A DNA stretch of 64,000 nucleotides from Lachnospiraceae bacterium (GTDB lineage: Bacteria > Bacillota > Clostridia > Lachnospirales > Lachnospiraceae), in NCBI GenBank assembly GCA_017612555.1, contig JAGAFR010000034.1:62001-126000 (forward strand), written 5' to 3'. The stretch's first letter is position 1. Every line of letters begins with the position of its first letter. Of this stretch, positions 4,233 to 23,004 are shown piece by piece. The notes below the pieces were generated by a model. It was not told the DNA's origin, ran no database searches, and saw nothing but the letters and a program-made list of their open reading frames with translations. Both the position numbers and the translations under genes were made by a program.

Positions 4233-4393
4233 AAGAAAAGAATTATATTAAAAGATTTGTAGGGGGATTAAGAATCCTTAGAGAAATGACATACTTTGAT
4301 TATAAAGTTGATGTTGAGTTTGATTATGTTACGCAAATTGAACGAACCGGGAGGGACAAGTTCCCTATGTTGGTTCAGCATATAAGTCTCTAG
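4229..4393 (+). CDS. Small 54-residue frame, possible remnant of a truncated gene
   Basis: The ATG overlaps the stop of the aminotransferase as ATGA, the same coupling used between the other genes of this operon. The frame encodes a basic peptide beginning MKEKNYIKRFVGG and ends at TAG 4391. No family is recognised. Its coupling suggests it once was, or still is, translated with the operon; its short length and abrupt end just before an unrelated-looking glycosyltransferase suggest the 5' stump of a longer gene lost by recombination. It may equally be a chance frame. Confidence 0.35.
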   Translation: MKEKNYIKRFVGGLRILREMTYFDYKVDVEFDYVTQIERTGRDKFPMLVQHISL

Positions 4394-4404
4394 TTTATAA
4401 AAGT

Positions 4405-5160: not shown

Positions 5161-5163
5161 CAA

Positions 5164-6180: not shown

Positions 6181-6252
6181 TAACAACCAAACCCGCAAAT
6201 ATTGCGGGAGAAACAACTTGAAATACCGCAAAATATGTGGTTTAATATAGGC

Positions 6253-6819: not shown

Positions 6820-7612
6820 TGAGAATATAAGAACAAATGACAGACGCTCATCCAAGGGCAACCAGATGAAATTCGAGAGGGACGGCATCTGGTACAAAGC
6901 TGATTATCTGGGATATGAGGGACTTGCCGAGTATACTGTTTCAAAGCTGCTTGCTTTTTCTGCTCTTGAAGAGGACGAATTTGTTGACTATGAGATCGAG
7001 CAGATAGAATATAACGGACAGGTGTTCAGGGGATGCAGGAGTCGTGATTTTACCGAAGGGTGGCAGTTGATAACGCTGGAGCGTCTGTTCAAACAGATGT
7101 ATGGCCACGGACTGAACAGCGTGATATATTCGGTTGAAGACCATACAGAACGTCTGAAGGTGCTGACGCAGCAGGTTGAAAGAGCTACGGGCATCAGGGA
7201 TTTTGGCGGATATATGAGCAAGATACTCGCGGTCGACGCTCTGTTTCTCAATGAAGACAGGCATACACATAATCTGGCGGTGATGATGAATGATAAAGGT
7301 GATTTCAAACCTGCACCAATATTTGATAATGCGGCATGTCTCCTGTCTGATATCACGCTTGAGTATCCAATGGACGGAGAGTTGTATTTTCTTATAGATA
7401 AGGTTAAGCCCAAAACGTTTTGCAATGATTTTACGGAACAGCTTGACATCGCTGAGCAGTTGTACGGACGCAGGATATGCTTTAACTTCGTATATGACGA
7501 TGTGAAGGCTGTAGTGGACAGAGCAGATATTTATGACAATATGCAAAGGAAACGGGTCATCAACACCGTTATGGAAATGCGCCGAAGGTATTCGTATATG
7601 TTTGGGGATTAG
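6803..7612 (+). CDS. HipA-like serine/threonine protein kinase
   Basis: 269 residues, about the size of minimal HipA-type kinases such as CtkA or HipT and much shorter than HipA (440). A glycine/serine-containing nucleotide loop (SSKGNQMKFE) precedes YKADYLGYEGLAE, with probable ATP-binding Lys and Glu. The catalytic block LNEDRHTHNLAV (about residues 151-162) has the Asp and Asn of the HipA loop, followed by PAPIFDNAACLL with the metal-binding Asp. The N-subdomain 1 of HipA is absent. It overlaps the helix-turn-helix gene, giving a toxin-antitoxin-like pair. Substrate and toxicity are unknown. Confidence 0.75.
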   Translation: MIELFDENIRTNDRRSSKGNQMKFERDGIWYKADYLGYEGLAEYTVSKLLAFSALEEDEFVDYEIEQIEYNGQVFRGCRSRDFTEGWQLITLERLFKQMYGHGLNSVIYSVEDHTERLKVLTQQVERATGIRDFGGYMSKILAVDALFLNEDRHTHNLAVMMNDKGDFKPAPIFDNAACLLSDITLEYPMDGELYFLIDKVKPKTFCNDFTEQLDIAEQLYGRRICFNFVYDDVKAVVDRADIYDNMQRKRVINTVMEMRRRYSYMFGD

Positions 7613-7637
7613 AGATCTTGATACGGAATGGACTACG

Positions 7638-7666
7638 TTGAGAAAAGCGACGGATTTTGGTAAAAT
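7638..7666 (+). promoter_or_regulatory. Sigma-A-type promoter for rubrerythrin
   Basis: TTGAGA at 7638-7643, 17-base spacer, TAAAAT at 7661-7666, about 54 bases upstream of the rubrerythrin start, which has its own strong site AGGAGG near 7707. No clear PerR-type operator was identified. Confidence 0.65.
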
Positions 7667-7719
7667 GAACATCAGACTTCATTGTGTTCAATTATGTTGA
7701 TTTATAGGAGGATAGTACT

Positions 7720-8280
7720 ATGTCAGACAAATGGAGATGCAGGGCACAGGATCTGAAAGGAACCAAGACAGAGAAGAACCTTATGGAGGCGTTTGCCGGC
7801 GAGAGTCAGGCGCGTAATAAATATACATATTTTGCTTCAAAAGCAAAGAAAGAAGGGTATGTTCAGATATCAAATATCTTTGCCGAGACAGCAGAGAATG
7901 AGAAGGAACATGCCAAGATATGGTACAAGATACTTGAGGGTATAGGAAGTACCGTTGACTGCCTAAAGGCGGCTGCCGACGGTGAAGCACATGAGTGGAA
8001 AGAGATGTATCCTTCATTTGCAAAGACTGCAAGGGAAGAGGGATTTGATGAGATAGCGGAACTCTTTGAAGGAGTTGCTGCTATAGAGAAGGAACACGAG
8101 GAGAGATACCGTAAGCTCCTTAAGAATATTGAGGATAAGCTGGTATTCTCCAAGGACGGAGACGCTGTGTGGCAGTGCGCTAACTGCGGACATATCGTAG
8201 TCGGGAAAGAGGCTCCCGAAGTGTGTCCGGTATGTAATCATCCCCGGGCATATTTCCAGGTTAAAGCAGAGAATTATTAA
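7720..8280 (+). CDS. rbr: Rubrerythrin
   Basis: 186 residues. The N-terminal ferritin-like four-helix domain carries the diiron ligands ([26 protein letters not shown], and later [14 protein letters not shown]), and a C-terminal rubredoxin domain has two Cys pairs (CANCGH and CPVCNH). Rubrerythrin reduces hydrogen peroxide to water in anaerobes using electrons from rubredoxin. The length is standard. It is followed 43 bases later by a flavoprotein-rubredoxin gene that could be its electron donor. Start ATG follows a GGAGG site. Confidence 0.96.
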
Positions 8281-8323
8281 TCGCAATACGCTAAGAGGTG
8301 TTCAAAGAAAGAGAGGGTTACGC

Positions 8324-8932
8324 ATGGATCCAAAGGTAATGCAGAAGCTCAGTTATGGTCTGTTTGTTCTTACGGCTAAGGACGGTGACAAGGATAACGG
8401 ATGTATCATCAATACGGCAATACAGGTAACAAGCGAGCCGAACAGGATCACTATTGCGGTTAATAAAGGCAACTTCACTCATGATATGGTAAAAAAGACA
8501 GGAGTCTTCAACGTGTCGATACTCAGCGAAGCTGCCAAGTTTGATACGTTTAAGCATTTCGGTTTTCAGAGCGGAAGAGATGTCGATAAGGCAGTCGGCA
8601 TCACATATAAAAGATCCGCTAATGATGTGATATACCTTGATTCCGCTGAGGTTAATGCCTATATCTCCGCCAAGGTAATACAGAGCATAGATCTCGGTAC
8701 ACATACACTGTTCATCGCAGATGTTACCGATGGAGAGGTTCTGAATCCGGAGGCATCGGCTACGTACGCATACTATTTCGCACACATTAAGCCTGCCCCT
8801 GCAGCAAAGCAGGAATCCAAGAAAGGCTGGATATGTACGATATGCGGATATATATACGAGGGTGAAGAGTTGCCGGCAGACTTTATCTGCCCGGTATGTA
8901 AACACCCTGCGTCAGACTTCAAAAAGTTATGA
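8324..8932 (+). CDS. High-molecular-weight rubredoxin (flavin reductase-like domain plus rubredoxin)
   Basis: 202 residues. Residues 1 to about 160 are an FMN-binding flavin-reductase-like split barrel (begins MQKLSYGLFVLTAK, with the ITIAVNKGNFTHDM block). Residues about 165-202 are a rubredoxin iron site (CTICGYIYEGEEL and CPVCKHPASDF). This is the architecture of Hrb of acetogens, which passes electrons from NAD(P)H-linked donors to oxygen- or peroxide-reducing partners. Its position directly after rubrerythrin supports a shared oxidative-stress role in the cytoplasm. Confidence 0.92.
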   Translation: MDPKVMQKLSYGLFVLTAKDGDKDNGCIINTAIQVTSEPNRITIAVNKGNFTHDMVKKTGVFNVSILSEAAKFDTFKHFGFQSGRDVDKAVGITYKRSANDVIYLDSAEVNAYISAKVIQSIDLGTHTLFIADVTDGEVLNPEASATYAYYFAHIKPAPAAKQESKKGWICTICGYIYEGEELPADFICPVCKHPASDFKKL

Positions 8933-8972
8933 TATTCGATAAATCAAAATATATAAGAGAGTAGGATTAAAC

Positions 8973-10064
8973 ATGAGTAAAAAAGCACTTATCACAGGCG
9001 TTACCGGACAGGACGGCTCATATCTTGCGGAGTTTCTGCTTGATAAAGGATATGAAGTCTATGGCATGATCAGACGCTCTTCCGTGGATTTTCGTGAGAG
9101 GATCGCACACCTTGAAGGCAAACCGCATTTTCATCTTCGCTACGGTGATCTCAGTGATTCCATGAGTATAGTTGCGGTAGTGGGTTCGGTGAGACCGGAT
9201 GAGATATACAATCTGGCGGCACAGTCGCATGTTCAGGTAAGCTTTGATTCGCCGGAGTTTACCGCTGATATAGATGCAACAGGTGTACTTCGTGTTCTTG
9301 AAGCAGTCAGGAATTGCGGACTTGCGGATACATGCAGGATATACCAGGCGTCCACATCGGAACTGTACGGTAAGGTCGAGGAAGTTCCGCAGAATGAGGA
9401 GACTCCTTTCCATCCTTACAGCCCCTACGCTGTAGCCAAGCAGTACGGATACTGGATCGTGAAGGAGTACAGGGAAGCATACAACATGTACTGTTGCAGC
9501 GGTATCCTGTTCAATCATGAATCGGAGCGGCGTGGCGAAACGTTTGTTACACGTAAGATCACGCTTGCGGCAGCCAGGATAGCTCAGGGCAAGCAGGACA
9601 AGCTGTATCTCGGAAATCTGTCATCACTTCGCGACTGGGGTTATGCCAAGGATTACGTTGAGTGTATGTGGCTGATCCTTCAGCAGGATAAGCCGGATGA
9701 TTTTGTCATAGCTTCGGGCGTGCAGCATTCCGTTAGAGATTTCTGTAAACTGGCATTTCATTATGTCGGTATAGAGCTTGAGTTTACCGGTGAAGGAATG
9801 GATGAGAAGGGTGTAGACAAGGCCACGGGAAGAGTACTTGTTGAGGTGTCGCCTGACTTCTACCGTCCGACCGATGTTGTCAATCTGTTCGGGGATCCTT
9901 CCAAGGCAAAGAGAGTTCTCGGATGGAATCCGCAGTCCACAACATTCGAAGAACTGGTTAAGATAATGGTCGATCATGATATGGAAAAGGTTGCCGTTGA
10001 GCGCGCCGGAGAGCATATCCGCATGAACCTTGAGGAATACCTGGAAAAGGGTGTGGTAAAATGA
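8973..10064 (+). CDS. gmd: GDP-mannose 4,6-dehydratase
   Basis: 363 residues, the usual length. Extended short-chain dehydrogenase fold: NADP-binding [13 protein letters not shown] near the N-terminus, the catalytic Tyr/Lys pair in [12 protein letters not shown] (about residue 150), and the Gmd-specific block [18 protein letters not shown]. It converts GDP-D-mannose to GDP-4-keto-6-deoxymannose. The next gene, overlapping it, is GDP-fucose synthase; the GDP-mannose source (manC) lies 5.7 kb downstream. Confidence 0.97.
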
Positions 10065-11005
10065 TGGAAAAACAAGAAAAGATCTACGTTGCCGGACATC
10101 GCGGCATGGTTGGTTCCGCTATTGTACGGCAACTGGAAAAGCAGGGTTACAACAATATAATAACAAGAACACATAAGGAGCTTGATCTGTGCGATCAGGC
10201 GGCTGTCAGGGCTTTTTTTGAGAAAGAAAAGCCCGATTATGTTTTTCTGGCGGCAGCCAAGGTCGGCGGGATCGCCGCCAATAATGAAGCTTTGGCTGAT
10301 TTTATGTACGAGAACATGGTTCTTGAGATGAACGTTATCCATTCGGCATGGCAGAACGGCTGTAAGAAGCTGGAATTTCTTGGAAGTTCATGCATTTATC
10401 CCAGGATGGCTCCGCAGCCCATGAAGGAGTCGTGTCTCCTTACGAGTGAACTGGAGAAGACCAATGAAGCTTATGCGCTTGCAAAGATATCCGGTCTTAA
10501 GTACTGCGAGTTCCTTAACAGACAGTATGGGACCGACTATATCAGTGTTATGCCGACCAACCTGTACGGACCGAATGATAATTATCATCCGAGACATTCC
10601 CATGTGCTCCCGGCACTTATAAGAAGGTTTCATGAGGCAAAGGAGCAGGGACTTACGGAAGTCACATGCTGGGGTGACGGATCTCCGCTGCGTGAGTTCA
10701 TGTATGTTGATGATCTGGCAGACCTGTGTGTGTTCCTCATGAACAATTACAGCGGAAACGAGACGGTTAATGCGGGAACAGGCAAAGAGATCACGATCAA
10801 GGCTCTTACCGAGCTTGTTGCCAAGGTAATCGGATATACGGGAGAGATCAAGTGGGATCCTTCCATGCCGAACGGAACACCGAGAAAGCTTCTTGATGTA
10901 TCCAAGGCAGCCTCACTCGGATGGACATACAAGACCGAACTGGAGGATGGAATAAGGCTTAGTTACGAGGATTTCCTCAATAATCCCATGAGGGCTGAAC
11001 GCTGA
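10061..11005 (+). CDS. fcl: GDP-L-fucose synthase
   Basis: 314 residues. Starts at the overlapping ATGATG with gmd; the second ATG (10064) is equally possible. Rossmann motif [12 protein letters not shown], catalytic region with the conserved Ser-Cys ([16 protein letters not shown]) and the Tyr/Lys pair in [13 protein letters not shown], plus the [13 protein letters not shown] block characteristic of WcaG. It epimerises C3 and C5 and reduces C4 of GDP-4-keto-6-deoxymannose to yield GDP-L-fucose. A fucosyltransferase of family GT10 is encoded at 51590. Confidence 0.96.
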
Positions 11006-11053: not shown

Positions 11054-12298
11054 TTGGTTTTACTGTATATTGATCCCGGAACCGGGAGCATGCTGTTTTC
11101 CGTACTATTGGGCATATTCATGGCAGTTTTCTTCGCCTTGCGTAAAGTATGGATCAGGGTTAAAGCATTGTTTCTGGGAGGAAAAGCTGAGAAGATATCG
11201 AAAGATAAAATTCCTGTTGTGATATTTACCGACAGTAAGAGATACTGGACTATTTTTCACCCTATATGTGATGAACTTGAAAGAAGAGGGATCAGAACGG
11301 AGTATTGGACGGAATCCGAAGACGATCCTGCATTTGATTTTCAGTATGATCATATAACAGCCCGGTATATCGGAAATCTTAATAAAGCGATAACAAAATT
11401 GAATATCATGAACGCATACATCTGCCTTTCAACAACGCCCGGACTTGAAGTATATCAATGGAAAAGGTCAAAGTATACGGATGAATATATACATATATGG
11501 CATTCTGCCAGCAGCGGACTGTTATACAGGATGTTTGGTACCGACTGGTATGATGTTTTGATGCTTCCGGGTGATTTTATCGAAGAAAATCTGAGAAAAC
11601 TCGAAAAAATGCGCCATATGCCGCCTAAGTTAATGCTTAAGACGGGCCTTCCTTATTTTGATGTTATGGATCAGGAGGTCAGATCCAGGACATTTGAGAG
11701 AGCGGATGTAACCACGGTTCTTGTTGCACCTACATGGGGTGTGAACAGCCTGTTTAATCAACTGGGTGATGAGTTGATAGACAGGCTTATTGAGACGGGA
11801 TATAACATTATCATCCGTCCTCATCCGCAATCATATACAGCGGAGGCTGATCTAATCGACAGATTAAAGAAAAAATATCCGGAGAACGAGAATCTTCACT
11901 GGAATTCCGATAATGATAATTTGAATGTCCTTGGCAGTTCGGATATCATGATATCGGACCATTCCGCAGTTGTATATGACTACACGATAATATTTGATAA
12001 ACCGGTAATATACTCACTTGTTGAATTTAACAAAGATCCGTATGATGCATGGTGGATCGAAGAAGATCCCAAGATAGTGACGATACTTCCGGAAATGGCA
12101 GTGGAGATCAAACAGAAAGACCTGCCAAATCTCAAAAGTATTATTGATAGTGCGCTTACAGACACGGAGAAAGCAAAAGGCAGGGCATATGCAAGAGAAC
12201 ACTTCTGGTATAATCATGGACAGGGCGCAGAGAAGTGTGTTGATTATATTGAGAACAGGATCAATGAATTGATCGAAAGTCAGGAAAAGGTTGTCTGA
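11054..12298 (+). CDS. TagF/TagB-like CDP-glycerol glycerophosphotransferase family protein
   Basis: 414 residues. TTG start at 11054 is fixed by AGGAGG at 11043-11048. The N-terminus is one membrane helix after the segment LLYIDPGTGSMLFSVLLG. The rest matches the GT-B-like CDP-glycerol phosphotransferase fold: YIHIWHSASSGLLYR in the middle, VAPTWGV, NIIIRPHPQS (about residue 255) and SDIMISDHSAVVYDY (about residue 297), where the His and Ser residues are conserved. Enzymes of this family polymerise or attach glycerol-, ribitol- or sugar-phosphates. The substrate is unknown; a nucleotidyltransferase gene follows almost immediately and may make the activated donor. Confidence 0.8.
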   Translation: MVLLYIDPGTGSMLFSVLLGIFMAVFFALRKVWIRVKALFLGGKAEKISKDKIPVVIFTDSKRYWTIFHPICDELERRGIRTEYWTESEDDPAFDFQYDHITARYIGNLNKAITKLNIMNAYICLSTTPGLEVYQWKRSKYTDEYIHIWHSASSGLLYRMFGTDWYDVLMLPGDFIEENLRKLEKMRHMPPKLMLKTGLPYFDVMDQEVRSRTFERADVTTVLVAPTWGVNSLFNQLGDELIDRLIETGYNIIIRPHPQSYTAEADLIDRLKKKYPENENLHWNSDNDNLNVLGSSDIMISDHSAVVYDYTIIFDKPVIYSLVEFNKDPYDAWWIEEDPKIVTILPEMAVEIKQKDLPNLKSIIDSALTDTEKAKGRAYAREHFWYNHGQGAEKCVDYIENRINELIESQEKVV

Positions 12299-12311
12299 TA
12301 AGGAGGATGAG

Positions 12312-13052
12312 ATGCAGGCGATAATTCTCGCTGCCGGTATGGGAAAACGGCTTAAAGAGTACACACAGGATAATACAAAGTGTATGGTCAAAGTAAACGG
12401 CGTGACCATGATTGAGAGACTTCTCAGACAGTTGGACGACAGACGTCTTGACAGGATCATTATAGTAGTCGGTTATGAAGGCCGGAAATTGGAAGACTAT
12501 GTAAGAACACTCGGGATTGCAACCGATGTGGAGTTTGTTAACAACCCGATATACGATAAGACAAATAATATTTATTCACTGGCACTTGCTAAGGATTTTT
12601 TGCTGGAGGATGATACGGTCCTATTTGAATCGGATCTGATCTTTGAGGACAGGATAATATCAGCTGTATTTGAAGACAGCAGAGATACATTGGCGGTTGT
12701 TGCCAAATATGAGCCATGGATGGATGGCACATGCGTTATGTTCAGGGATGACGGAATGATCACACGTTTTATCCCCAAGAAGGACTATGACAGGTCTGAG
12801 ATTGACAAGTATTACAAAACCGTGAACGTATATAAACTCGGTAAAGAGTTTTCGCGCAGGTATTATGTTCCTTTTATGGACGCATATCGGCATGCGCTCG
12901 GTGAGAATGAGTATTATGAGCAGGTTTTTCGTATCATAACAATGCTTGATGAACCGCTGATGGGTGCGTTATGTCTCAAAGATGAAAAGTGGTATGAGAT
13001 CGATAACGCTGAGGATCTTGCGAATGCATCAAGAATATTTGAAGGAATATAG
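12312..13052 (+). CDS. LicC-like nucleotidyltransferase (NTP-transferase fold)
   Basis: About 246 residues from ATG 12312, chosen because AGGAGG lies at 12301-12306; an upstream in-frame ATG at 12291 lacks such a site. N-terminal signature LAAGMGKRLKEYTQDNTKCM with the Lys of the pyrophosphorylase motif, then VVGYEGRKLEDYV and the metal-binding FESDLIFED region (about residue 100). It resembles LicC and related CTP:phosphocholine or CTP:phospho-polyol cytidylyltransferases. Between a TagF-like transferase and a phosphatase-fold membrane enzyme, activation of a phospho-alcohol is the best inference. The nucleotide and substrate cannot be read from sequence. Confidence 0.75.
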   Translation: MQAIILAAGMGKRLKEYTQDNTKCMVKVNGVTMIERLLRQLDDRRLDRIIIVVGYEGRKLEDYVRTLGIATDVEFVNNPIYDKTNNIYSLALAKDFLLEDDTVLFESDLIFEDRIISAVFEDSRDTLAVVAKYEPWMDGTCVMFRDDGMITRFIPKKDYDRSEIDKYYKTVNVYKLGKEFSRRYYVPFMDAYRHALGENEYYEQVFRIITMLDEPLMGALCLKDEKWYEIDNAEDLANASRIFEGI

Positions 13053-13060
13053 GTTTATTT

Positions 13061-15769
13061 ATGGGAAGTTATTTATACGCATTGATCATATATCCTCTTG
13101 AGATGTTCATAGAGACGGTGTTCTCCATATCTATGGAGATGGTGCCGAGTGCAGGATATGCCATCATATTTGTCAGCCTGGCAGTCCAGCTTTTGGTACT
13201 TCCGCTGTATAAACGTGCGGATGAGCTGCAGCAGGAGGAGAGGGACCGTCAGAAGGAGATGGCCCCTGCGGTTAAGCATATCAAGAAGACATTCAAGGGC
13301 GATGAGCGAGTGATGATGCTCTCTATGTATTATCGGTTTGAGAATTATCACTCATATCACCAACTCAAGGGAATCCTTCCCCTTCTTCTTCAGATACCTT
13401 TCTTTATGGCTGCATACAATTTCCTTTCAGAGTGCTCGGCGCTTGACGGAGCATCATTTTATTTTCTGAGGGATATGGGTAAACCCGATGGAATGATCAC
13501 TGTTGCAGGTATAGCAATTAATGTTATGCCTATTTTGATGACTCTTATAAATATCATTTCAGGAGCTATATATACAAGAGGATTGGGATTAAAGGATAAG
13601 CTCCAGTTATACATAACTGCAGGCATATTTCTCGTTATTCTTTATGATTCTCCGTCGGGACTGGTCTTTTATTGGACGCTGAATAATCTGTTTTCACTTG
13701 CCAAGAATATATTCATGAAGATCGTGAAACGCCCTCGCCCCATAATAGGCGTTTTGTCGCTTCTTTTTGTCTGTGCATACTGCTTTAAGTGCTATACATA
13801 CGGAAGATGGTCGGAGCCCGAGGGAAGGATCACGATGATCCTGATCTTTGCTATCGGAACTCTCCCATTATTGGGACTGTTGCTCGACAAGGTTCGTAAG
13901 AACAGGGATGAAGAGGGCGTAACCGCTGAGGAGAAATCGGTATTCCTCCTGTCGTCGATCGTTACGGCGCTGACAGTCGGGGCACTGATCCCTATCGTCA
14001 CGATCGCATCCTCACCTGCTGAGTTTGTCGTAAGAGGCTACTATGTTAATCCTGTGGTCCATGCAATATATCCGATCATTGTGGCAACAGGGATATTCGT
14101 GTTGTGGGGTAATATACTACGTGCCTTTAATTCATCAAGATCGCAAAAGGTAATGTGTTTTGCCATGTTTGGAATATCCGCATGTGTTCTTGTGAATTCG
14201 CAGTTTTTCAGAAAAAACCTGAATAACATGTCTGTCCACATGCAGTATAACAGGTTACTGGATATCACAACGCAGCAAAAGCTGGTTAATGCGGCTGTGC
14301 TGATGGGGGTTCTGCTTGTCTGTTACGGCATATATAAATACAACAAAAGAACAGTTGGGGGATTATGTATTTCTCTCATGGCGGTTGTTGTGTTCATGAC
14401 CGGATATAATGTAGTGAAGATTCAGAGGGCCGTTAACAATACGGCGCATATTAAGGATAATGAATACTATACACAAAGCGATGCTCATTTTACACTTGAC
14501 AAAAGAGGCGATAACGTCGTTGTGATCATGCTGGACCGTGCTCTGGGACAGTATGTTCCGTACATATTCAATGAACGACCTGAACTGGCTGATGTTTTTT
14601 CGGGCTTTACGTTTTATCCCAATACCATCACCTATGGACCACATACGTTGACAGGCGCACCTGCACTTATGGGTGGATACGAGTATACAACATATAACGT
14701 GAAAGACATGGTCGATGATGAGTATAAGGATTTCAGGTTAAGTAGTATAAATGTTATGCCGACGATCTTTTCGGAGAATGGATATAAATGCTCGGTGTTA
14801 GACCCGCCGATAAGTCCGGGAAACGAGGGATTGGAAGACTATTACAAGGGTATTTCCACGGATATAGATGCGTATTATGCTGATGGAGTGATGAGAACAG
14901 CTGAAGAGGCAAAGAGAGACTATGACTATTTTGCAGGAATCGCAAAAAAAACTTATATAAAACACAGTTTGTTCTTGGCAGCACCGCAGTTTATCCGCCT
15001 TTGGATCTATGATGATGGACAGTATCACTTGCAAACGAAAGTAGATGAAAGATTAACATTAAGAGGCCACGTAAGTGAATTGGATAAACTCAGTGAAATG
15101 ACGTCAGTGACGGATAAGGGAACCGGGACATATACATTTATCTGCAATCTGACGCCGCATTGTATTAATGCCGATCTTCAGATGCCGGACTACACACTGG
15201 AGGATACAGTGGATAATTCACCATATCTTGATGAATGGAGAAACACACTTGATAGTACTCCGGGAAACAGGAAGATAAATATGTATACGGACTGGGCAAT
15301 ACAGTCTTATGAAGTGAACATGACCTGTTATCTTCGCATTGCGGAATGGATAAAGTATCTGAAAGATAATGATCTGTATGACAATACCCGCATCATTCTC
15401 GTATCGGATCACGGTTTCTATTATTTCGCATTTGATGATATGATGTTTGATAAGGGGGATGGCGTGATAGATCTTGAGAGAATGACCCCTCTTCTGATGG
15501 TAAAGGATTTTGGCGACGGACAGTTTTCCACATCTGATGAGTTCATGACAAATGCGGATGTTCCGACGATCGCAATGAATGGGCTGATAGAAGACCCGGT
15601 TAATCCGAACACAGGCAAGCAAATATCGGATGCTCAGAAGCATGAACGTGAGCAGTATGTTTTTGACGATGATGACTGGTTATCGGTTCATGATGATATC
15701 TATGATCTGAATAACTGGAAGGTAGAAGAAATAGAATTTAAAAACAAGGAACTTATGATGAGCGATTGA
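13061..15769 (+). CDS. Fusion of a YidC/Oxa1-like membrane domain with an alkaline-phosphatase-fold (LtaS/sulfatase-like) domain
   Basis: 902 residues. Residues 1 to about 225 look like YidC/Oxa1: a helix with SLAVQLLVLPLYKR, a charged hairpin (KEMAPAVKHIKKTFKGDE), then LKGILPLLLQIPFFMAAYN. Residues about 225-455 add roughly seven hydrophobic helices. From about 485 an extracytoplasmic alkaline-phosphatase-superfamily domain begins: metal Asp in VVVIMLDRALG (about 491), the likely Thr nucleophile in PHTLTGAPALMGG (about 528-531), NLTPHC (about 698) and the second metal site ILVSDHGFYYF (about 782). That domain transfers phosphoglycerol or phosphoethanolamine in LtaS-type enzymes. Both parts are in one uninterrupted frame. 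It follows the LicC-like gene by 8 bases. The YidC part may insert proteins or may be recruited for lipid substrate handling. Confidence 0.82.
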   Translation: MGSYLYALIIYPLEMFIETVFSISMEMVPSAGYAIIFVSLAVQLLVLPLYKRADELQQEERDRQKEMAPAVKHIKKTFKGDERVMMLSMYYRFENYHSYHQLKGILPLLLQIPFFMAAYNFLSECSALDGASFYFLRDMGKPDGMITVAGIAINVMPILMTLINIISGAIYTRGLGLKDKLQLYITAGIFLVILYDSPSGLVFYWTLNNLFSLAKNIFMKIVKRPRPIIGVLSLLFVCAYCFKCYTYGRWSEPEGRITMILIFAIGTLPLLGLLLDKVRKNRDEEGVTAEEKSVFLLSSIVTALTVGALIPIVTIASSPAEFVVRGYYVNPVVHAIYPIIVATGIFVLWGNILRAFNSSRSQKVMCFAMFGISACVLVNSQFFRKNLNNMSVHMQYNRLLDITTQQKLVNAAVLMGVLLVCYGIYKYNKRTVGGLCISLMAVVVFMTGYNVVKIQRAVNNTAHIKDNEYYTQSDAHFTLDKRGDNVVVIMLDRALGQYVPYIFNERPELADVFSGFTFYPNTITYGPHTLTGAPALMGGYEYTTYNVKDMVDDEYKDFRLSSINVMPTIFSENGYKCSVLDPPISPGNEGLEDYYKGISTDIDAYYADGVMRTAEEAKRDYDYFAGIAKKTYIKHSLFLAAPQFIRLWIYDDGQYHLQTKVDERLTLRGHVSELDKLSEMTSVTDKGTGTYTFICNLTPHCINADLQMPDYTLEDTVDNSPYLDEWRNTLDSTPGNRKINMYTDWAIQSYEVNMTCYLRIAEWIKYLKDNDLYDNTRIILVSDHGFYYFAFDDMMFDKGDGVIDLERMTPLLMVKDFGDGQFSTSDEFMTNADVPTIAMNGLIEDPVNPNTGKQISDAQKHEREQYVFDDDDWLSVHDDIYDLNNWKVEEIEFKNKELMMSD

Positions 15770-15816: not shown

Positions 15817-17169
15817 GTGAACATTATTCTGTTATCCGGCGGCTCGGGCAAGCGCCTGTGGCCGCTTTCCAATGACATAAGATCCAAACAGTTCATCAAG
15901 ATATTCAAAAAGGATGACGGGACATACGAATCTATGGTTCAGCGGATGTACCGTCAGATCAAGGCTGTGGATCCGACGGCAACCGTGACTATCGCAACGA
16001 GCAGGACACAGGTTTCTGCAATCAATAATCAGCTTGGCGAGGATGTGGGCATATCGATAGAACCGTGCAGGAGAGATACCTTCCCTGCGATAGCACTTGC
16101 AACAGCGTATCTTGCGGATGTGATGCATGTTCCGACTGACGAGGCGGTTGTGGTCTGCCCTGTCGACCCGTACGTTGAGGATGATTACTTCGCGGCCCTG
16201 AAGACACTGTGCGATCGTGCTGCCGCGGGATCCGCAAACCTCGTTCTGATGGGAATGGAACCGACATATCCCAGTGAAAAGTACGGTTACATTATGACAC
16301 GTATTTGCGAAGCAGATGCGTGTCAAGGCGACGCCGACAAAGTCGGTGTTGGGACTGCGACTTTTTCATCTGTTAAGGAATTTAAAGAGAAACCTGACCT
16401 TGAAACCGCTAAGAAATACCTTGAGCAGGGAGCACTCTGGAACGGGGGTGTGTTCGCATATAAGCTCTCTTATGTGCTCGACAAGGCAAAAGAGATCATA
16501 GGTTTTTGTGATTATAAGAGTTTGTTTGATAAGTATGATACGCTGACGAAGATATCTTTTGACTATGCTGTTGTTGAAAAGGAAGACAATATTGAGGTCA
16601 TGAGGTTTTCCGGGCAGTGGAAGGATCTCGGAACATGGAATACGCTTTCTGAGGCCATGGAGGAGCCGTCCATAGGTGAAGCCATTCTTAACGATAAGTG
16701 TGAAGACGTTCATGTGATAAATGAACTGAACGTTCCGATACTCGCCATGGGAATAAAGAACGCCGTAATATGTGCATCCGCCCAGGGAATACTTGTATCG
16801 GACAAGGAGCAGTCAAGTTATATCAAGCCATTTGTTGATAAGATCGATCAACAGATCATGTTCTCGGAAAAGAGCTGGGGAAGCTACCGGGTAATAGAGG
16901 TTGAAGAAGGTAGTATGACGGTTATGGTCACGCTGAATCCCGGACATGGGATGCATTATCACTCCCATAAACTCAGGGATGAGGTTTGGACAGTCATATC
17001 CGGCAACGGAACAGCAACGATCGATGATGTTGAGACTAAGATAAAAGTCGGAGACGTTCTTACGATGAAGGCAGGACAGAAGCATAAGGTTGTTGCCGAT
17101 ACCGAGCTGAAGCTGATCGAAGTACAGATCGGAGACGAGATAAGCGTACAGGATAAGGAGAAACATTAG
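15817..17169 (+). CDS. manC: Mannose-1-phosphate guanylyltransferase with C-terminal cupin
   Basis: 450 residues; GTG start after an AGGAG site. N-terminal pyrophosphorylase motif LSGGSGKRLWPLSNDIRSKQF, the VVCPVDPYVEDDYF metal region, KEFKEKPD and WNGGVF substrate motifs. Residues about 345-450 form a cupin (GMHYHSHKLRDEVWTVISG), as in bifunctional mannose-6-phosphate isomerase/guanylyltransferases. It supplies GDP-mannose for gmd/fcl. Between YGYIMT and KEFKEKPD there is an unusually long loop of about 20 extra residues (16305-16365) with a small palindrome. Confidence 0.93.
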   Translation: MNIILLSGGSGKRLWPLSNDIRSKQFIKIFKKDDGTYESMVQRMYRQIKAVDPTATVTIATSRTQVSAINNQLGEDVGISIEPCRRDTFPAIALATAYLADVMHVPTDEAVVVCPVDPYVEDDYFAALKTLCDRAAAGSANLVLMGMEPTYPSEKYGYIMTRICEADACQGDADKVGVGTATFSSVKEFKEKPDLETAKKYLEQGALWNGGVFAYKLSYVLDKAKEIIGFCDYKSLFDKYDTLTKISFDYAVVEKEDNIEVMRFSGQWKDLGTWNTLSEAMEEPSIGEAILNDKCEDVHVINELNVPILAMGIKNAVICASAQGILVSDKEQSSYIKPFVDKIDQQIMFSEKSWGSYRVIEVEEGSMTVMVTLNPGHGMHYHSHKLRDEVWTVISGNGTATIDDVETKIKVGDVLTMKAGQKHKVVADTELKLIEVQIGDEISVQDKEKH

Positions 17170-17943
17170 ATGAAAGTAGTTATCTTAGCCGGCGGATACG
17201 GAACAAGGATAAGCGAAGAGAGTCATCTTCGCCCGAAGCCGATGATCGAGATCGGCGAGAAGCCTATATTGTGGCATATCATGAAGGGATACAGCGCAAG
17301 AGGGTATAATGATTTTATCATCTGCTGCGGGTACAAACAGCACATGATAAAGGACTGGTTTGCGGATTATTATCTCTACAACTGTGATGTAACCTTTGAT
17401 TTTACGCAGGAAAATCATATGACCGTGCATAATAACGAGTCTGAGCCGTGGCGGGTTACTCTTGTGGATACCGGTATCGATACGATGACAGGCGGCAGGA
17501 TAAAGCGTGTGCAGAAATATGTCGGGGATGAGACTTTCATGCTGACATACGGTGATGCGGTTTCGGATATAGATCCCAATGAACTGCTTAAATATCACAA
17601 GAGTCACGGAAAGCTTGCAACGGTAACAGCGATCGCAGTCGATCAGCGATTTGGCGTGCTGGAGATGAACAGGGATAATGAGATAACATCTTTCCGTGAG
17701 AAGCAATCGGTTGACAATTCACGTATCAGCGGTGGGTTTATGGTGCTGGATGCGAAAGTATTTGATTATATCGAGGGTGATGAGACCGTGTTTGAAAAGG
17801 GTCCGATGATGAAACTGGCAGCGGAGGGAAATCTTATGGGATACTGCTATGACGGGTTCTGGCAGTGCATGGATACAAAGCGTGAGAAGGACCGCCTCGA
17901 AGAGATGTGGGATTCCGGAAAGGCACCGTGGAAATGCTGGTAA
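17170..17943 (+). CDS. rfbF: Glucose-1-phosphate cytidylyltransferase
   Basis: 257 residues, the family length. Signature LAGGYGTRISEESHLRPKPM at the N-terminus distinguishes it from thymidylyl- and uridylyltransferases; IICCGYKQHMIKDWF and the metal-binding TYGDAVSDID follow, and the C-terminal WQCMDTKREKDRLEEMW is typical of RfbF/DdhA. It makes CDP-glucose, the entry to CDP-3,6-dideoxyhexoses. Starts one base after the manC stop. The partner CDP-glucose 4,6-dehydratase is not found in the window. Confidence 0.95.
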   Translation: MKVVILAGGYGTRISEESHLRPKPMIEIGEKPILWHIMKGYSARGYNDFIICCGYKQHMIKDWFADYYLYNCDVTFDFTQENHMTVHNNESEPWRVTLVDTGIDTMTGGRIKRVQKYVGDETFMLTYGDAVSDIDPNELLKYHKSHGKLATVTAIAVDQRFGVLEMNRDNEITSFREKQSVDNSRISGGFMVLDAKVFDYIEGDETVFEKGPMMKLAAEGNLMGYCYDGFWQCMDTKREKDRLEEMWDSGKAPWKCW

Positions 17944-18857
17944 ATCCACCTGCCGTTATGGATATTCATGCGGATGACTATGCCCTTACGGTCAACACAT
18001 CGAGCCAAATACTCGATCTCATGCGGGAAGGGGTTCTTGACAGTATCAGTATCATTCCCAACTCAGACTGCTACGAGACCTGTATCAGTATGTTAAAAGA
18101 GGCGATCCCCAGCCTTCCGTTTCTTCCGGTTATGTCAGTACACCTCAATCTTGTGGAAGGATACAGCCTTTCCGGTCAGGAAGGCTCTTTGATCACAAGC
18201 TCATGGAAGAGTCTGTTTTTGGACTCGTTCAGGATCATTCATCGAAAAGATATCATAGAAAAGCTCGTAAATGAGATCAGCAGGCAGATAAAGATATGCG
18301 ACGGATCCATCAGGGAGTGTATTAAGATCGCAGGGGACAATGGAATTCCCTGTTCTCAAAAGAAAGTCAGGATCGACAGTCACCGGAATTCTCACGTGAT
18401 ACCTATAGTATGGACTGCTCTTATGGAATGCATCGACAGGGACGGGATTGATGTCGAGTATATCCGCAGTCCCGGAGAACCACTCGGACCGTTCATATCC
18501 ATGCGCCCGTTTTGGAAAAGTTACAGGTTTGTTAATCTGATAAAGAACAGGATCCTCCGGGTACTGTCCTCAAAATGCAACAGATATGATATAAAAGCAG
18601 GGCATCAACCTATGTATCTGTGGGGAATCATAATGAGCGGAAGGATGGACGTAAAGAGGATAAGAAGGCTGTTTCCTCATTTTAGGAATAAAGCGGCAGA
18701 GGATGGTCGAAGACTCGAGATCCTGTTTCATCCGGGACGAATGAAAGAAAGTGAGATGTGGCCGGGGATACCGGAATCATCGGCATATGATTTTTACTTA
18801 AGCGTTAACAGAGACCTTGAAAAAGAAGGCGCCAGAAGAACAAAGGATATGAAGTGA
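17934..18857 (+). CDS. ChbG/HpnK (YdjC-like) family carbohydrate deacetylase
   Basis: About 307 residues from ATG 17934, which overlaps the rfbF stop by 10 bases. The metal-binding Asp-Asp motif of the family appears as DIHADDYALT, followed by MSVHLNLVEGYSL and RIDSHRNSHVIP, which carry the His ligands; GHQPMYLWG and LFHPGRMKE occur late. ChbG enzymes remove N-acetyl groups from chitooligosaccharides and HpnK acts on N-acetylglucosaminyl hopanoids. Its place between rfbF and rfbH suggests deacetylation of a glycan or lipid-linked sugar from this locus, but substrate is unknown. Confidence 0.8.
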   Translation: MLVNPPAVMDIHADDYALTVNTSSQILDLMREGVLDSISIIPNSDCYETCISMLKEAIPSLPFLPVMSVHLNLVEGYSLSGQEGSLITSSWKSLFLDSFRIIHRKDIIEKLVNEISRQIKICDGSIRECIKIAGDNGIPCSQKKVRIDSHRNSHVIPIVWTALMECIDRDGIDVEYIRSPGEPLGPFISMRPFWKSYRFVNLIKNRILRVLSSKCNRYDIKAGHQPMYLWGIIMSGRMDVKRIRRLFPHFRNKAAEDGRRLEILFHPGRMKESEMWPGIPESSAYDFYLSVNRDLEKEGARRTKDMK

Positions 18858-20221
18858 TGTTTGAGAATATGACGGAAGAAGAAGCAAGAAAACAGATACT
18901 TGAAAGTGTCGATGAATACTGCAGAACCTATCATAACAAAAGGAAACCTTTTGAACCGGGGGACAGGATCACTTATGCTTCGCGCGTATATGACAGTGAT
19001 GAGATGACAAATCTTGTTGATTCGGCGCTTGAGTTCTGGCTTACTTCGGGCAGATATACGGATGAATTTGAAAGGTCATTTGCGGATTATCTCGGAATAC
19101 GTTTCTGCAGTCTGGTCAATTCAGGTTCCAGTGCGAATCTGATCGCATTTATGACGCTTACTTCACCTCTTCTTGGCGATGTAAACGGAAAAGACCGCCG
19201 TGTACGTCCGGGTGATGAGGTCATTACAGTCGCAGCGGGTTTTCCCACCACAGTGGCTCCGATCATTCAATATGGTGCGGTGCCTGTATTTGTGGATGTA
19301 ACCATACCTGAGTACAATATAGATACGTCAAAGCTTGAAGATGCGCTGTCAGATAAGACCAAGGCCGTCATGATAGCACATACGCTTGGTAATCCCTTTG
19401 ATCTTCGGGCTGTCAGGGCATTTTGCGACAACCACGGTCTGTGGCTTATAGAAGATAACTGTGATGCACTGGGAAGCCGGTATGAGATGGAAGACGGATG
19501 GCATTTTACCGGAACGATCGGTGATATCGGGACATCAAGTTTCTATCCTCCGCATCATATGACTATGGGCGAAGGCGGGGCTGTCTATACGGATAACCCG
19601 TTGCTTAATAAGATCATCAGGAGTCTGCGAGACTGGGGGAGGGACTGCGTGTGTCCTTCGGGTAAGGACAATCTGTGCGGTCACCGCTTTGACGGAAAGT
19701 ACGGCGAGCTTCCCGTCGGTTATGATCACAAGTACGTATATTCGCATTTCGGTTACAACCTCAAGGCGACTGATATGCAGGCTGCCATAGGATGTGCACA
19801 GCTTAAGAAATTCCCGGGATTTGTGGAGAGGAGAAAAGAGAACTTCGCACATTTGACCGGCGGTCTTAAAAGCGCCGCGAAGGATATCGAAGATAAACTG
19901 ATCCTTCCTGTTGCAAGCGATCACTCGGATCCAAGCTGGTTCGGATTCATGATGACATGCCGTGAAGACGTGGACCGTAAGAGCGTCGTCCTGAAGACAG
20001 AGGCGGCCGGCGTTCAGACAAGAGCCCTCTTTGCGGGAAACCTTACGAAGCATCCCTGCTTTGATGAAATGCGTGGAAACGGGAAGGGATTCCGTATAGT
20101 GGGAGATCTTGCCAATACGGATCTTATCATGGAAAGATCCTTCTGGGTCGGCGTGTATCCGGGTATGACCAAAGAGATGCTCGATCATATCTGTATGGCG
20201 ATCGTTGAGGCCGTAAAGTAG
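18857..20221 (+). CDS. rfbH: CDP-4-dehydro-6-deoxyglucose 3-dehydratase (E1-like)
   Basis: About 454 residues; ATG 18857 overlaps the previous stop as TGATG. Aminotransferase fold, but the PLP-binding Lys is replaced by His in PPHHMTMGEGG (about residues 231-234), the hallmark of this PMP-dependent dehydratase. The cluster CVCPSGKDNLCG (about residues 264-274) supplies cysteines for the [2Fe-2S] centre. It removes the 3-hydroxyl of CDP-4-keto-6-deoxyglucose with a reductase partner, leading to 3,6-dideoxyhexoses such as abequose or paratose. No flavin/iron-sulfur reductase (E3, RfbI) gene is seen nearby. Confidence 0.94.
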   Translation: MFENMTEEEARKQILESVDEYCRTYHNKRKPFEPGDRITYASRVYDSDEMTNLVDSALEFWLTSGRYTDEFERSFADYLGIRFCSLVNSGSSANLIAFMTLTSPLLGDVNGKDRRVRPGDEVITVAAGFPTTVAPIIQYGAVPVFVDVTIPEYNIDTSKLEDALSDKTKAVMIAHTLGNPFDLRAVRAFCDNHGLWLIEDNCDALGSRYEMEDGWHFTGTIGDIGTSSFYPPHHMTMGEGGAVYTDNPLLNKIIRSLRDWGRDCVCPSGKDNLCGHRFDGKYGELPVGYDHKYVYSHFGYNLKATDMQAAIGCAQLKKFPGFVERRKENFAHLTGGLKSAAKDIEDKLILPVASDHSDPSWFGFMMTCREDVDRKSVVLKTEAAGVQTRALFAGNLTKHPCFDEMRGNGKGFRIVGDLANTDLIMERSFWVGVYPGMTKEMLDHICMAIVEAVK

Positions 20222-21020: not shown

Positions 21021-21947
21021 ATGAAGAGAGTAGTGATAACCGGCGCTACCGGAACGATCGGTATGGCGTTGATGAATAAATGCATAGAACGGGGTATTGA
21101 AGTGACAGCACTGGTCAATCCCGAGAGCCGGCGTCTTACAAGGATACCGGAAAGCCCCCTTGTCAAAGTCATAAAATGCGGGCTTGATGATCTTGCATCG
21201 GCAGATGCGACCTTGCTTGATGTAAAGCCGGACATGGATGCCATGTTCCATCTTGCCTGGGGAGGCACTTTTGGGGATGCAAGGAATGATAAAGACCTGC
21301 AGGAGCGGAACGCAGCTTATGCATCGGATGCGGTAGGACTTGCTCACAGGCTTGGGTGCAAAGTGTTTATCGGAGCAGGTTCACAGGCTGAATATGGGAG
21401 AGTACCGGGTAAGCTGTCTGCAGATACTCCGTGTGATCCCGAAAATGAATACGGCAGAGCAAAGCTCAAGACATCGGAAGAAACACGCAAACTGTGCCTG
21501 GAACTTGGCATAAGACATATCTGGCCCAGGATCCTGAGTATATACGGACCATATGACGGTGAGAGGACAATGGTCATGTCCCTTATAAGACAACTGCTTC
21601 ATGGCGACAGACCGGCGCTTACAAAAGGTGAGCAAATGTGGGATTATCTGTATTCTGAAGATGCCGCTGCTGCGATGATGATGCTTGCCGAAAAGGGAGT
21701 TGACGGCAAGGTATATCCGATAGGTTCGGGAAATGCCAGGCCGCTCAGAGAATACATAGAGATCATAAGGGATGAGATAGATCCGAAATTGCCGCTTGGA
21801 TTCGGAGAAGTAGAGTATTCGCCGAAACAGGTGATGCATCTGTGTGCCGATATCAGTGAGCTTAAAGAAGATACGGGATTTGAACCGGCTGTCAGCTTCG
21901 AGGAAGGCGCAAGACGAACGATAGAATACGTCAGGGCCTGTCTTTGA
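21021..21947 (+). CDS. NAD-dependent epimerase/dehydratase, probable CDP-dideoxyhexose reductase (RfbJ-like)
   Basis: 308 residues. Extended SDR fold: ITGATGTIGMALM at the N-terminus, GAGSQAEYGR, the catalytic Tyr/Lys in NEYGRAKLKTSEE (about residues 143-155), and a C-terminal substrate domain. Located at the end of the rfbF/rfbH block, it most probably reduces or epimerises the CDP-4-keto-3,6-dideoxy sugar, as abequose or paratose synthases do. Sugar identity is inference from context. Its last 17 bases overlap the convergent gene on the other strand. Confidence 0.8.
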   Translation: MKRVVITGATGTIGMALMNKCIERGIEVTALVNPESRRLTRIPESPLVKVIKCGLDDLASADATLLDVKPDMDAMFHLAWGGTFGDARNDKDLQERNAAYASDAVGLAHRLGCKVFIGAGSQAEYGRVPGKLSADTPCDPENEYGRAKLKTSEETRKLCLELGIRHIWPRILSIYGPYDGERTMVMSLIRQLLHGDRPALTKGEQMWDYLYSEDAAAAMMMLAEKGVDGKVYPIGSGNARPLREYIEIIRDEIDPKLPLGFGEVEYSPKQVMHLCADISELKEDTGFEPAVSFEEGARRTIEYVRACL

Positions 21948-23004
21948 GTCGTTCTCCGAATATAAACCTTTTCTGAAGGCGATAGCTTATCACGAACAGC
22001 AGGGTATCTACGATGATCTTGGCGATCTGTACCGGGATGACGGCACTTACCAGGCTGACAAGAGCCGCAGAACACGCCATCTGTACGATGCACAGGCCAT
22101 AGTACATAAAGAGAGTTTCCGGACCCCGGCCGCTTTTAAATACAAGTTTTTTATTGATCGTGTAGTTGAAAAGTGAAGAAATGACGCGGGCTGCGGCGGT
22201 GGATATCCATATCGCGCGGCTTTCCGTAAAAGAGCCGGACAGCATATGGAACATTCCGCAAAATACCCCGTAATCAACAACAAACGATGAAAGTGATGAC
22301 AGCGCATATCTTATGAATGTTCCGAAGATGACACGGTATATCTTGATCGAGTCCTTGATCGGATTAAAGTGCGTTTCGCTGTTATTATTGATGTATATAG
22401 TCTGAATGCTCACTTCTTTTATATCGATCCCGGAATGTATGGCATCAATGAGCTGAACGGTCTCATATTCAAATCTGTCCCCGCTAAGCGTGGAAAAACG
22501 TTCCACGAGTGATGAGGGTATGCCGCGAAGACCTGTCTGGGTATCGTGGATATCTCCGCCTATAAAGAGCTTTAGAGCGATCCGTGTGCATCTGTTTCCG
22601 AACAGGCTCTTCGGAGGAACTCCTCCGCCGTAAAAGTCCCTTGCCCCAAGTATGAGAGAGTTGGGATTTCCTTCCATGCATGCTGCGACTTTGTTGACAT
22701 CCTCCACGGTGTGCTGACCGTCGGAGTCTACGGTTATGATGCCGCTGATCCTGTCTTTATCACATTCATCAAGGAAATAGCGCATAGCATCCTTAAGAGC
22801 ACGCCCCTTGCCGAGATTGACATGGTGCCGCAGTATGCGGCAACCTTCTTTTGCCTCTATTGCATCAAAAATAAACCGGCAGTCGGTGCGGCTTCCGTCA
22901 TCAACCACCAGTATATCTTCATATCCGTGTGACAGTAATGTGTCTACATACCCTATAAGTCCGCTGTCCGGATTGAGAGCGGGGATCACGATCAGAACTT
23001 TCAT
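21931..23004 (-). CDS. Two-domain GT2 glycosyltransferase with C-terminal GtrA membrane domain
   Basis: 357 residues. Residues 1-225 are a DPM1-like GT2 domain (VLIVIPALNPDSGL, VVDDGSRTDCR, TVDSDGQHTVED with the metal-binding Asp residues, and DTQTGLRGIPSSL). Residues about 235-355 contain four hydrophobic helices of the GtrA type (RYALSSLSSFVVDYGVF, NYTINKKLVFK). Such fusions make or flip polyprenyl-phosphate sugars. It converges on the epimerase with a 17-base overlap. A promoter at 23012-23040 places the mRNA start at or next to its ATG, with no room for a ribosome binding site. Confidence 0.9.
   Translation of the reverse strand: MKVLIVIPALNPDSGLIGYVDTLLSHGYEDILVVDDGSRTDCRFIFDAIEAKEGCRILRHHVNLGKGRALKDAMRYFLDECDKDRISGIITVDSDGQHTVEDVNKVAACMEGNPNSLILGARDFYGGGVPPKSLFGNRCTRIALKLFIGGDIHDTQTGLRGIPSSLVERFSTLSGDRFEYETVQLIDAIHSGIDIKEVSIQTIYINNNSETHFNPIKDSIKIYRVIFGTFIRYALSSLSSFVVDYGVFCGMFHMLSGSFTESRAIWISTAAARVISSLFNYTINKKLVFKSGRGPETLFMYYGLCIVQMACSAALVSLVSAVIPVQIAKIIVDTLLFVISYRLQKRFIFGERLKDRP

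Follow-up and report, generated by a model that had tools for sequence, protein, structure and literature searches.

Introduction

Transferases of the alkaline-phosphatase fold that act outside the cell membrane generally draw the group they transfer from a lipid. LtaS combines a Thr nucleophile with a metal site of acidic and His ligands, PptA and EptA have the alkaline-phosphatase fold, and GacH has a many-helix membrane part; we know of no PptA or EptA with a YidC domain or with a partner of the Glyphos_transf family (Glyphos). In passages of PMC10434233, phosphatidylglycerol (PG), phosphatidylethanolamine and phosphatidylcholine are discussed as donors of external transferases, the latter two being the phospholipids proposed for PptA/EptA. 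For some lipid-linked donors of the cell envelope no translocator has yet been identified; PMC11754754 states this for the Glc-P-Und lipids. YidC is normally a free-standing protein that inserts others into the membrane, and a preprint (PMC10491306) places reconstituted Escherichia coli YidC among the insertases that scramble lipids robustly in proteoliposomes. Here we describe a gene in which a YidC core is fused to an ectodomain of the alkaline-phosphatase fold. It lies on 64,000 nucleotides (nt) of DNA (the window, meaning the whole stretch analysed) from Lachnospiraceae bacterium, assembly GCA_017612555.1, contig JAGAFR010000034.1, positions 62,001–126,000 of the forward strand. The architecture is genuine and widespread and has apparently not been described before; we regard it as a variant of the surface transferases of this fold.

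Results

Architecture of the Fusion

The reading frame starts with ATG at 13061, ends with the stop codon at 15767–15769 and has no internal stop, in agreement with the continuous frame of 902 codons reported in a first-pass annotation of the window. The same annotation had described a YidC-like N-terminus, about seven more helices and a complete catalytic domain of the LtaS/sulfatase type with metal Asp, Thr nucleophile and SDHG motif. The features of the gene are given below, with the evidence in parentheses (TM, transmembrane).

13061..15769, + strand: fusion of YidC, seven TM helices and alkaline-phosphatase-fold ectodomain, 902 aa (frame, curated models, same architecture elsewhere)
13085..13738, + strand: YidC/Oxa1 core, residues 9–226, five predicted TM helices (curated models, hydropathy)
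13742..13885, + strand: two extra predicted TM helices, residues 228–275 (hydropathy)
13949..14407, + strand: five predicted TM helices ahead of the ectodomain, residues 297–449, LtaS-like arrangement (hydropathy)
14468..15766, + strand: catalytic domain, predicted extracellular, residues 470–902 (profile, Pfam, alignment)
14534..14536, + strand: D492, putative metal ligand, invariant (alignments)
14645..14647, + strand: T529, putative nucleophile, invariant (alignments)
15158..15160, + strand: H700, putative active-site histidine, invariant (alignments)
15407..15412, + strand: D783-H784 of the SDHG motif, putative metal ligands, invariant (alignments)

The YidC-like character of the N-terminus was confirmed by two curated models above their cut-offs, 60KD_IMP (Pfam) over residues 32–220 (91.8 bits, cut-off 35) and TIGR03592 (yidC_oxa1_cterm) over residues 31–219 (99.9 bits, cut-off 84.3). 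All 17 members of the YidC-module alignment matched 60KD_IMP, and the solved YidC chain 3wo7 was matched by the fusion module with an E value of 3e-11 as a single sequence and of 7.9e-13 as a 17-sequence profile. A hydropathy and charge profile of 92 sequences showed YidC helices at residues 31–49, 104–122, 145–163, about 181–196 and about 199–217, the last two separated by eye out of one merged peak. Two helices (228–246 and 257–275) and then five (297–315, 335–353, 364–382, 407–425 and 431–449) followed the YidC core, which matches the earlier estimate of about seven. A further peak at residues 5–23 (value 1.61) is presumably the amphipathic helix of YidC, which does not cross the membrane. 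Weak peaks within the ectodomain (486–504 and 632–650) were discounted as helices; the former contains the catalytic D492.

Loops predicted inside held 2.3 to 11.0 Lys/Arg each, with the maximum in the large, positively charged first YidC loop of 54 residues (50–103), and loops predicted outside held 0.8 to 2.0; the linker 450–485 was an exception to this pattern, its 4.5 Lys/Arg being offset by 4.2 acidic residues. On the basis of the helix count and the loop charges, the ectodomain is predicted to lie on the outer side of the membrane. The helix pair 228–275 was gapped in the shorter relatives L036, L038 and L040 (L and G numbers denote loci and genomes), with the topology preserved.

The same five-helix unit precedes the catalytic domain in six complete sulfatase-fold relatives that are free of YidC (L042, L044, L139, L154 and two in L158), that of L154 having two further helices in front of the unit. 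The catalytic half looks like a complete LtaS-type unit onto which YidC was added. Since this unit occurs in YidC-free proteins, the transferase has predicted membrane helices of its own and YidC appears to be an addition to it, whereas the first-pass annotation had taken YidC for the membrane part.

Distribution of the Fusion

Ninety loci were examined, comprising the window, 12 regions from genomes of the family and 77 contig loci; they were chosen by similarity to the window protein, not at random, and several come from one and the same assembly. Gene calls for the locus counts were made from stop-to-stop frames and hidden Markov model matches; calling of the longest non-overlapping frames, which missed genes in high-GC loci and gave 61 of 83 loci with adjacent Glyphos, was superseded. 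The contig loci were obtained by an alignment scan in which the best 80 of 571 relatives were kept (77 loci), a selection biased to close relatives and no census; the 571 may include ordinary YidCs, because both peptide patterns used lie in the YidC half. The contig scan with the single protein as query gave no match. All 77 contig loci kept contain a YidC–sulfatase fusion.

In total, 114 fusion genes were found in 86 loci (one gene in 66 loci, two in 14, three in 5 and five in 1) and none in the other 4 of the 90 (L042–L045), which had been retrieved for weaker matches. L041 had no more than a YidC gene and L046 no more than a fragment of one; both were excluded from the locus count. Fusions with both halves occurred in 7 of 150 genomes of the family: the own genome, G004 (three copies), G022, G036, G049, G052 and G109. 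The carriers among the contig loci were mostly metagenome-assembled genomes (MAGs) of rumen and gut Clostridia, together with MAGs labelled Coriobacteriaceae, Eggerthellaceae and Treponema, and the isolates Schwartzia succinivorans DSM 10502, Butyrivibrio sp. INlla21 and MB2005, and Ruminococcaceae AB4001 and YRB3002. Among plasmid records 26 matched, none over more than 80% of the query, and the annotated ones among the matches listed were ordinary yidC.

The identity was 35–61% across 91 aligned relatives of the same architecture. That two separate genes had been joined by an error of assembly was a concern of the first-pass annotation, and the window does lie in an incomplete assembly of 94 contigs, the only point in favour of such an artefact. 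Its probability is negligible, because the same architecture is conserved in the 91 relatives, from loci that include those of the named isolates; the fusion recurs in all 86 loci, and GC content, overall and at third codon positions (GC3), is alike across the three parts of the gene.

Two possibly incomplete copies were observed. In L102 (3–1691) a sulfatase-fold gene with no detected YidC core stands directly upstream of a YidC–sulfatase fusion; it starts at the contig edge, where a YidC part may have been truncated. In L046 (7447–7713) a fragment of 88 residues resembles the YidC fusion and is perhaps a decayed copy.

Catalytic Domain

Profile comparison assigned the C-terminal 430 residues to the sulfatase/alkaline-phosphatase fold, as a distant member. 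In the whole protein, Pfam Sulfatase gave 24.4 bits (cut-off 25), against 27.3 bits with the C-terminal half alone; it was matched by 26 of the 29 members of the ectodomain alignment. Against solved chains the best match of the ectodomain profile was the sulfatase 2qzu (E 9.9e-9); LtaS chains were matched as well (4uoo, E 4.8e-6; 2w5q, E 2.3e-4), and were outscored by sulfatases and phosphonate monoester hydrolases. Residues D492, T529, H700, D783, H784, K815 and D833 were invariant in 92 fusions and 29 ectodomains, four of the latter YidC-free, so the Asp, Thr and Asp-His set named by the first reading is upheld. The catalytic roles of D492, T529, D783 and H784 are assumed here by analogy with LtaS/EptA-type enzymes. 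The maturation motif of formylglycine sulfatases, C/S-x-P-x-R, was not present at the nucleophile site of the fusion, where T529 sits in HTLTGAPAL; this Thr is invariant in the alignments.

The Glyphos Partner

Two genes lie directly upstream of the fusion:

11054..12298, + strand: TagB-like Glyphos_transf partner with N-terminal hydrophobic segment YIDPGTGS (PF04464, 52.8 bits, cut-off 22.1)
12291..13052, + strand: NTP_transf_3 nucleotidyltransferase of the LicC/PntC type, between Glyphos and the fusion (Pfam, identity comparison)

Standalone Glyphos (E < 1e-20, query L043) was present in exactly the seven fusion-carrying genomes among the 150 of the family. Among 398 genomes of the phylum, full-length Glyphos (>600 bits) and the full-length fusion were found in the same three (G000, G395 and G467); weaker Glyphos matches gave 182 bits (G546, a YidC+Glyphos fusion) and 167 bits (G524), and the weak matches to the fusion model in G408 and G357 were short YidC frames. 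The own genome belongs to both samples and the genes are linked, so these co-occurrences are not independent events.

Of the 64 loci whose flanks both exceed 1.3 kb, 55 had Glyphos, which in 49 cases lay on the strand of the fusion and within 400 nt of it. For all 86 loci the corresponding numbers were 71 anywhere in the locus and 65 within 400 nt on the same strand. The 20 loci with two to five fusion genes had one Glyphos in view in 16 cases, two in 2 and none in 2; a single Glyphos beside several fusions would suit a donor common to enzymes that differ in their acceptors. The fusion copies are directly tandem in some loci (five in L088; three in L059, L103 and L113) and elsewhere split by Glyphos or other genes. 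In L088 (287–15573) the five tandem genes come after one Glyphos gene.

The N-terminal YIDPGTGS segment of Glyphos (window 11066–11089) was invariant in 13 aligned partners and may be a hairpin that binds the membrane or a lipid carrier.

Exchange of the YidC Module

In five genomes the YidC core was fused to Glyphos instead (G135, G022, G086 and G051 of the 150, and G546 of the 398), as exemplified by L043 (7734–9632), with 117.6 bits for 60KD_IMP and 54.2 bits for Glyphos_transf. G022 has both fusion kinds. The gene directly adjoining the YidC+Glyphos fusion was a YidC-free sulfatase-fold transferase in three loci (L044, L139 and L154); in L140 (G051) the contig stops on the upstream side of the fusion, and in L043 (G135) no sulfatase-fold gene was found within 16 kb, the same genome having one on another contig (L042). 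The YIDP segment, typical of standalone Glyphos (71 of 73), is N-terminal on the free transferase of L154. The two adjacent genes of that locus (4781–7066 and 7048–9189) carry YidC on Glyphos and the YIDP segment on the sulfatase-fold protein. Because the free transferase bears the segment characteristic of standalone Glyphos, L154 is read as an apparent reciprocal exchange of both N-terminal membrane modules.

The YidC domains of the two fusion kinds formed separate, fully supported clades, with 100/100 for the YidC–sulfatase clade. In a 59-row tree other YidCs stood between the two fusion clades (support 92/81). The long branches of the two fusion kinds came together in a 49-row tree, a meeting that was flagged with a warning.

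Neither kind of fusion was found described in the titles and abstract openings of the open-access papers listed, in keeping with the first-pass statement that no such enzyme was known. YidC, sulfatase, Glyphos and CDP-glycerol are all without occurrence in the main text of the PntC paper (PMC6697681), and the available portions of PMC8675477 and PMC8296556 do not describe the fusion.

Separate YidC Genes

The usual neighbours of yidC are rpmH and rnpA. The own assembly of the window yielded no separate YidC, and rpmH and rnpA were likewise missing from it. Ten of the 12 other genomes with either fusion kind were tested (G135 and G051 were outside the test), and a separate YidC was present in nine, the exception being G052, which is 84% complete. 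The proposal that a separate YidC would mark the fused copy as specialised was thus borne out in nine carriers and found no counterpart in the own assembly. The lack of a separate YidC in the own genome was rejected as a sign of its replacement by the fusion, as rpmH and rnpA are absent too and nine of ten carriers keep a separate YidC. The separate YidC match of G109 (contig C21, 43792–44625) contains one in-frame TAG, either a sequencing error or real.

Neighbouring Genes and Donor Group

The other annotated genes around the fusion in the window were as follows:

8973..11005, + strand: GDP-mannose 4,6-dehydratase family member and epimerase family member, upstream nucleotide-sugar genes (Pfam)
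15817–17169, + strand: NTP_transferase with mannose-6-P isomerase C-terminal domain (domain scan)
17170–17943, + strand: NTP_transferase (domain scan)
17907–18857, + strand: open frame, no family assigned
18854–20221, + strand: DegT family aminotransferase (domain scan)

The upstream epimerase family member is presumably of the GDP-fucose type. With nucleotide-sugar genes around the fusion, a surface polysaccharide is the probable acceptor. Farther downstream, the minus strand at 21931–23004 encodes a glycosyltransferase-2-like protein whose hydrophobic C-terminal part is GtrA-like by eye.

Donor-activation genes (choline, aminoethylphosphonate and other cytidylyltransferases) were present in 44 of the 86 loci, with a LicC-type nucleotidyltransferase (at least 80 bits) in 37. 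The other families counted per 86 loci were choline-kinase-like (16), EamA (10), which we take to be LicB-like, phosphoenolpyruvate (PEP) mutase (9), phosphonopyruvate decarboxylase (8), 2-aminoethylphosphonate (AEP) transaminase (6, two weak), CobD-like pyridoxal-phosphate enzyme fused to LicC (4), TagD-like (4, three weak), BCCT (4) and LicD-like (4). Representatives passed the curated cut-offs of TIGR02320 (PEP mutase), TIGR03297 (phosphonopyruvate decarboxylase) and TIGR03301 (2-AEP transaminase), as well as those of Pfam Choline_kinase and BCCT. The weak phmmer matches to AEP transaminase and TagD in L098 and L064, and to TagD in L100 (45–61 bits), are probably other enzymes, and L098 and L064 were not counted as phosphonate loci. 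PEP mutase was found in 4 of 7 fusion genomes versus 11 of 143 others. Taken together, the genes near the fusion elsewhere speak for phospho- or phosphono-aminoalcohols rather than for glycerol phosphate (GroP) derived from PG.

The window nucleotidyltransferase shared 58–64% identity with the four CobD-fused proteins and 68% with a standalone nucleotidyltransferase of L048; all others were less than 39% identical to it, barring a 29-residue piece in L044. Its resemblance to the CobD-fused proteins suggests a phosphoethanolamine-like group in the window.

In L158 (G524) the region 1676–10724 encodes a PEP mutase/nucleotidyltransferase fusion, proteins related to phosphonopyruvate decarboxylase and to AEP transaminase, as well as Glyphos and a pair of sulfatase-fold proteins. 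In L068 (16439–17338) and L067 (3410–5179) the LicC-type nucleotidyltransferase carries a winged-helix DNA-binding domain at its N-terminus, that of L067 being followed by an added choline kinase domain; a self-regulated donor enzyme is possible.

Discussion

From these comparisons we propose that the fusion is an extracytoplasmic phosphotransferase which decorates a surface glycan and whose built-in YidC module moves the lipid-linked donor. The proposal as a whole is tentative, more so than any of its parts. That the fusion transfers a phosphate-linked group (P-X) at the surface is probable, and the chances that Glyphos provides the donor as a lipid are evenly balanced. A role of the YidC module as translocator, argued from the module exchange and from the published lipid scrambling by E. 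coli YidC, falls somewhat short of an even chance. With slightly more reserve, an Oxa1-family domain may have left protein insertion to serve solely as scramblase or flippase of a phosphate-linked donor, being joined to the enzyme that makes this donor or to the one that spends it. Glyphos, YidC and ectodomain, the candidate components of a lipid-carrier route, were found together in two domain arrangements. The YidC groove may hold a lipid, as the first-pass annotation had imagined. More specifically, the comparisons point to YidC linking a cytosolic Glyphos step with an external transferase step.

In the pathway proposed, the CTP:phospho-X cytidylyltransferase (window 12291–13052) would produce CDP-X or CMP-X, X being probably a phospho- or phosphono-aminoalcohol, ethanolamine-like in the window and choline or aminoethylphosphonate in relatives. 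As CDP-X is cytosolic and external transferases generally use lipid donors, a donor in the outer leaflet would have to be made from CDP-X, and membrane-attached Glyphos (11054–12298) would transfer P-X onto a presumed lipid acceptor at the cytosolic face. The head group would then cross via the hydrophilic groove of the YidC module, a candidate for this step because it spans the membrane, is found on either partner and has an E. coli relative that scrambles lipids. The ectodomain would finally remove P-X from the lipid by means of T529 and a metal bound by D492, D783 and H784, and hand it to the polysaccharide.

Several observations weigh against this proposal. A single origin of the YidC fusions was not rejected (approximately unbiased, AU, test, p = 0.312), so two independent captures are not established; such captures, favoured by the 59-row tree, were dropped in view of the 49-row tree and the AU result. 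No Glyphos was found in 9 of the 64 well-flanked loci. Eleven of the 16 choline-kinase-like matches scored only 55–76 bits, 12 of the 86 loci had the LicC type as their sole donor gene, and 42 had no LicC-type, choline kinase, phosphonate, CobD or TagD gene, in part because of short contigs or flanks. The genome of the window gave no PEP mutase match and no close CobD-like partner (best 26%), and it is here that X is least certain, the type of the adjacent nucleotidyltransferase being its sole evidence. The position that we take to correspond to the groove arginine R72 of Bacillus halodurans YidC2 was N, Q or S in 113 of 113 fusions; it was also uncharged in 15 of the 24 free-standing YidCs of the family (30 rows minus the fusion fragments L129–L132 and L041 and L134, extra copies of one protein), and is therefore no evidence of insertase loss, a reading that was rejected. 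In addition, YidC was not seen in 12.5 kb of L158 around the Glyphos/ectodomain pair, and is therefore not obligatory beside it. Because of this pair and of the module exchange, the constant core of the system is, as judged from the loci compared, the cytosolic/external enzyme pair, with YidC as an attachable module.

The ectodomain might instead work like LtaS or SccH, using GroP of PG, with YidC only holding or orienting a lipid or the polysaccharide carrier and Glyphos acting separately. The five helices ahead of the ectodomain and its matches to 4uoo and 2w5q agree with this, the higher scores of sulfatases and phosphonate monoester hydrolases notwithstanding, and SccH of Streptococcus mutans takes GroP from PG according to passages of PMC11754754. 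The co-occurrence of Glyphos, the presence of YidC on either enzyme and the choline and phosphonate genes would all be left unexplained, and we regard this alternative as rather unlikely. Quite unlikely, in our view, is a YidC module that remains an insertase or chaperone dedicated to a partner membrane enzyme, either its own second half or Glyphos: the YidC core is intact along its length and fusion to either partner could secure co-assembly, but nine of ten tested carriers keep a separate YidC and the free sulfatase-fold relatives with five helices do without one.

Glyphos could also resemble LicD and place P-X straight onto a lipid-linked repeat unit in the cytosol, the fusion being a later external polymerase, a trimming hydrolase or a second decorator. 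LicD-like genes do occur in four of the 86 loci, and PntC neighbourhoods include LicD-like phosphotransferases in the part of PMC6697681 concerned with them. Loci in which a single Glyphos is visible next to as many as five fusions are better explained by a shared donor, however, and alkaline-phosphatase-fold transferases usually use lipid head groups, in line with PMC10434233; this explanation is accordingly given a low probability. A YidC domain apparently fused to the enzymes that flank a translocation step makes a compact and testable case. Should YidC indeed act here as scramblase or flippase, the Oxa1 superfamily would gain a function new to it, and envelope decoration a pathway of a new class; the system would be categorically new if the module proves to be the translocator. 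The pathway could explain choline-, ethanolamine- or phosphonate-type surface groups in many rumen and gut Clostridia.

Among known systems, LtaS/LtaP share with the fusion the five predicted helices followed by an external alkaline-phosphatase-fold domain, as well as the profile match to LtaS chains. They differ in that the fusion adds an N-terminal YidC and usually two helices, has Glyphos and cytidylyltransferase partners, and shows a listed best matching stretch confined to the region around the DHG motif. SccH/GacH of streptococci are similar in that a cell-wall polysaccharide is decorated with a lipid-derived phospho group, as described in portions of PMC11754754; no chain named GacH was among the 59 PDB matches listed, and YidC is not mentioned in the available text of that paper. 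PptA/EptA are, like the proposed enzyme, external transferases of zwitterionic groups.

The Lic-1 and PntC pathways have in common with these loci the LicC/PntC-type cytidylyltransferase and the choline-kinase-like, PEP mutase, decarboxylase and transaminase genes near the pair, whereas LicD, their usual transferase, is rare here and would be replaced by Glyphos and the YidC–ectodomain fusion. The YidC/Oxa1 insertases resemble the module along the length of the core domain; unlike them, the module is fused to transferases, and the YidC–sulfatase domains form a clade of their own. With three-component transmembrane glycosylation, in which a cytosolic glycosyltransferase, a flippase and an external glycosyltransferase of the GT-C type cooperate (passages of PMC11754754), the proposed pathway would share a lipid-linked donor, its translocation and an external transfer, but the cargo would be P-X and not a sugar, the external enzyme would be of the alkaline-phosphatase fold, and the translocator would be of the YidC type.

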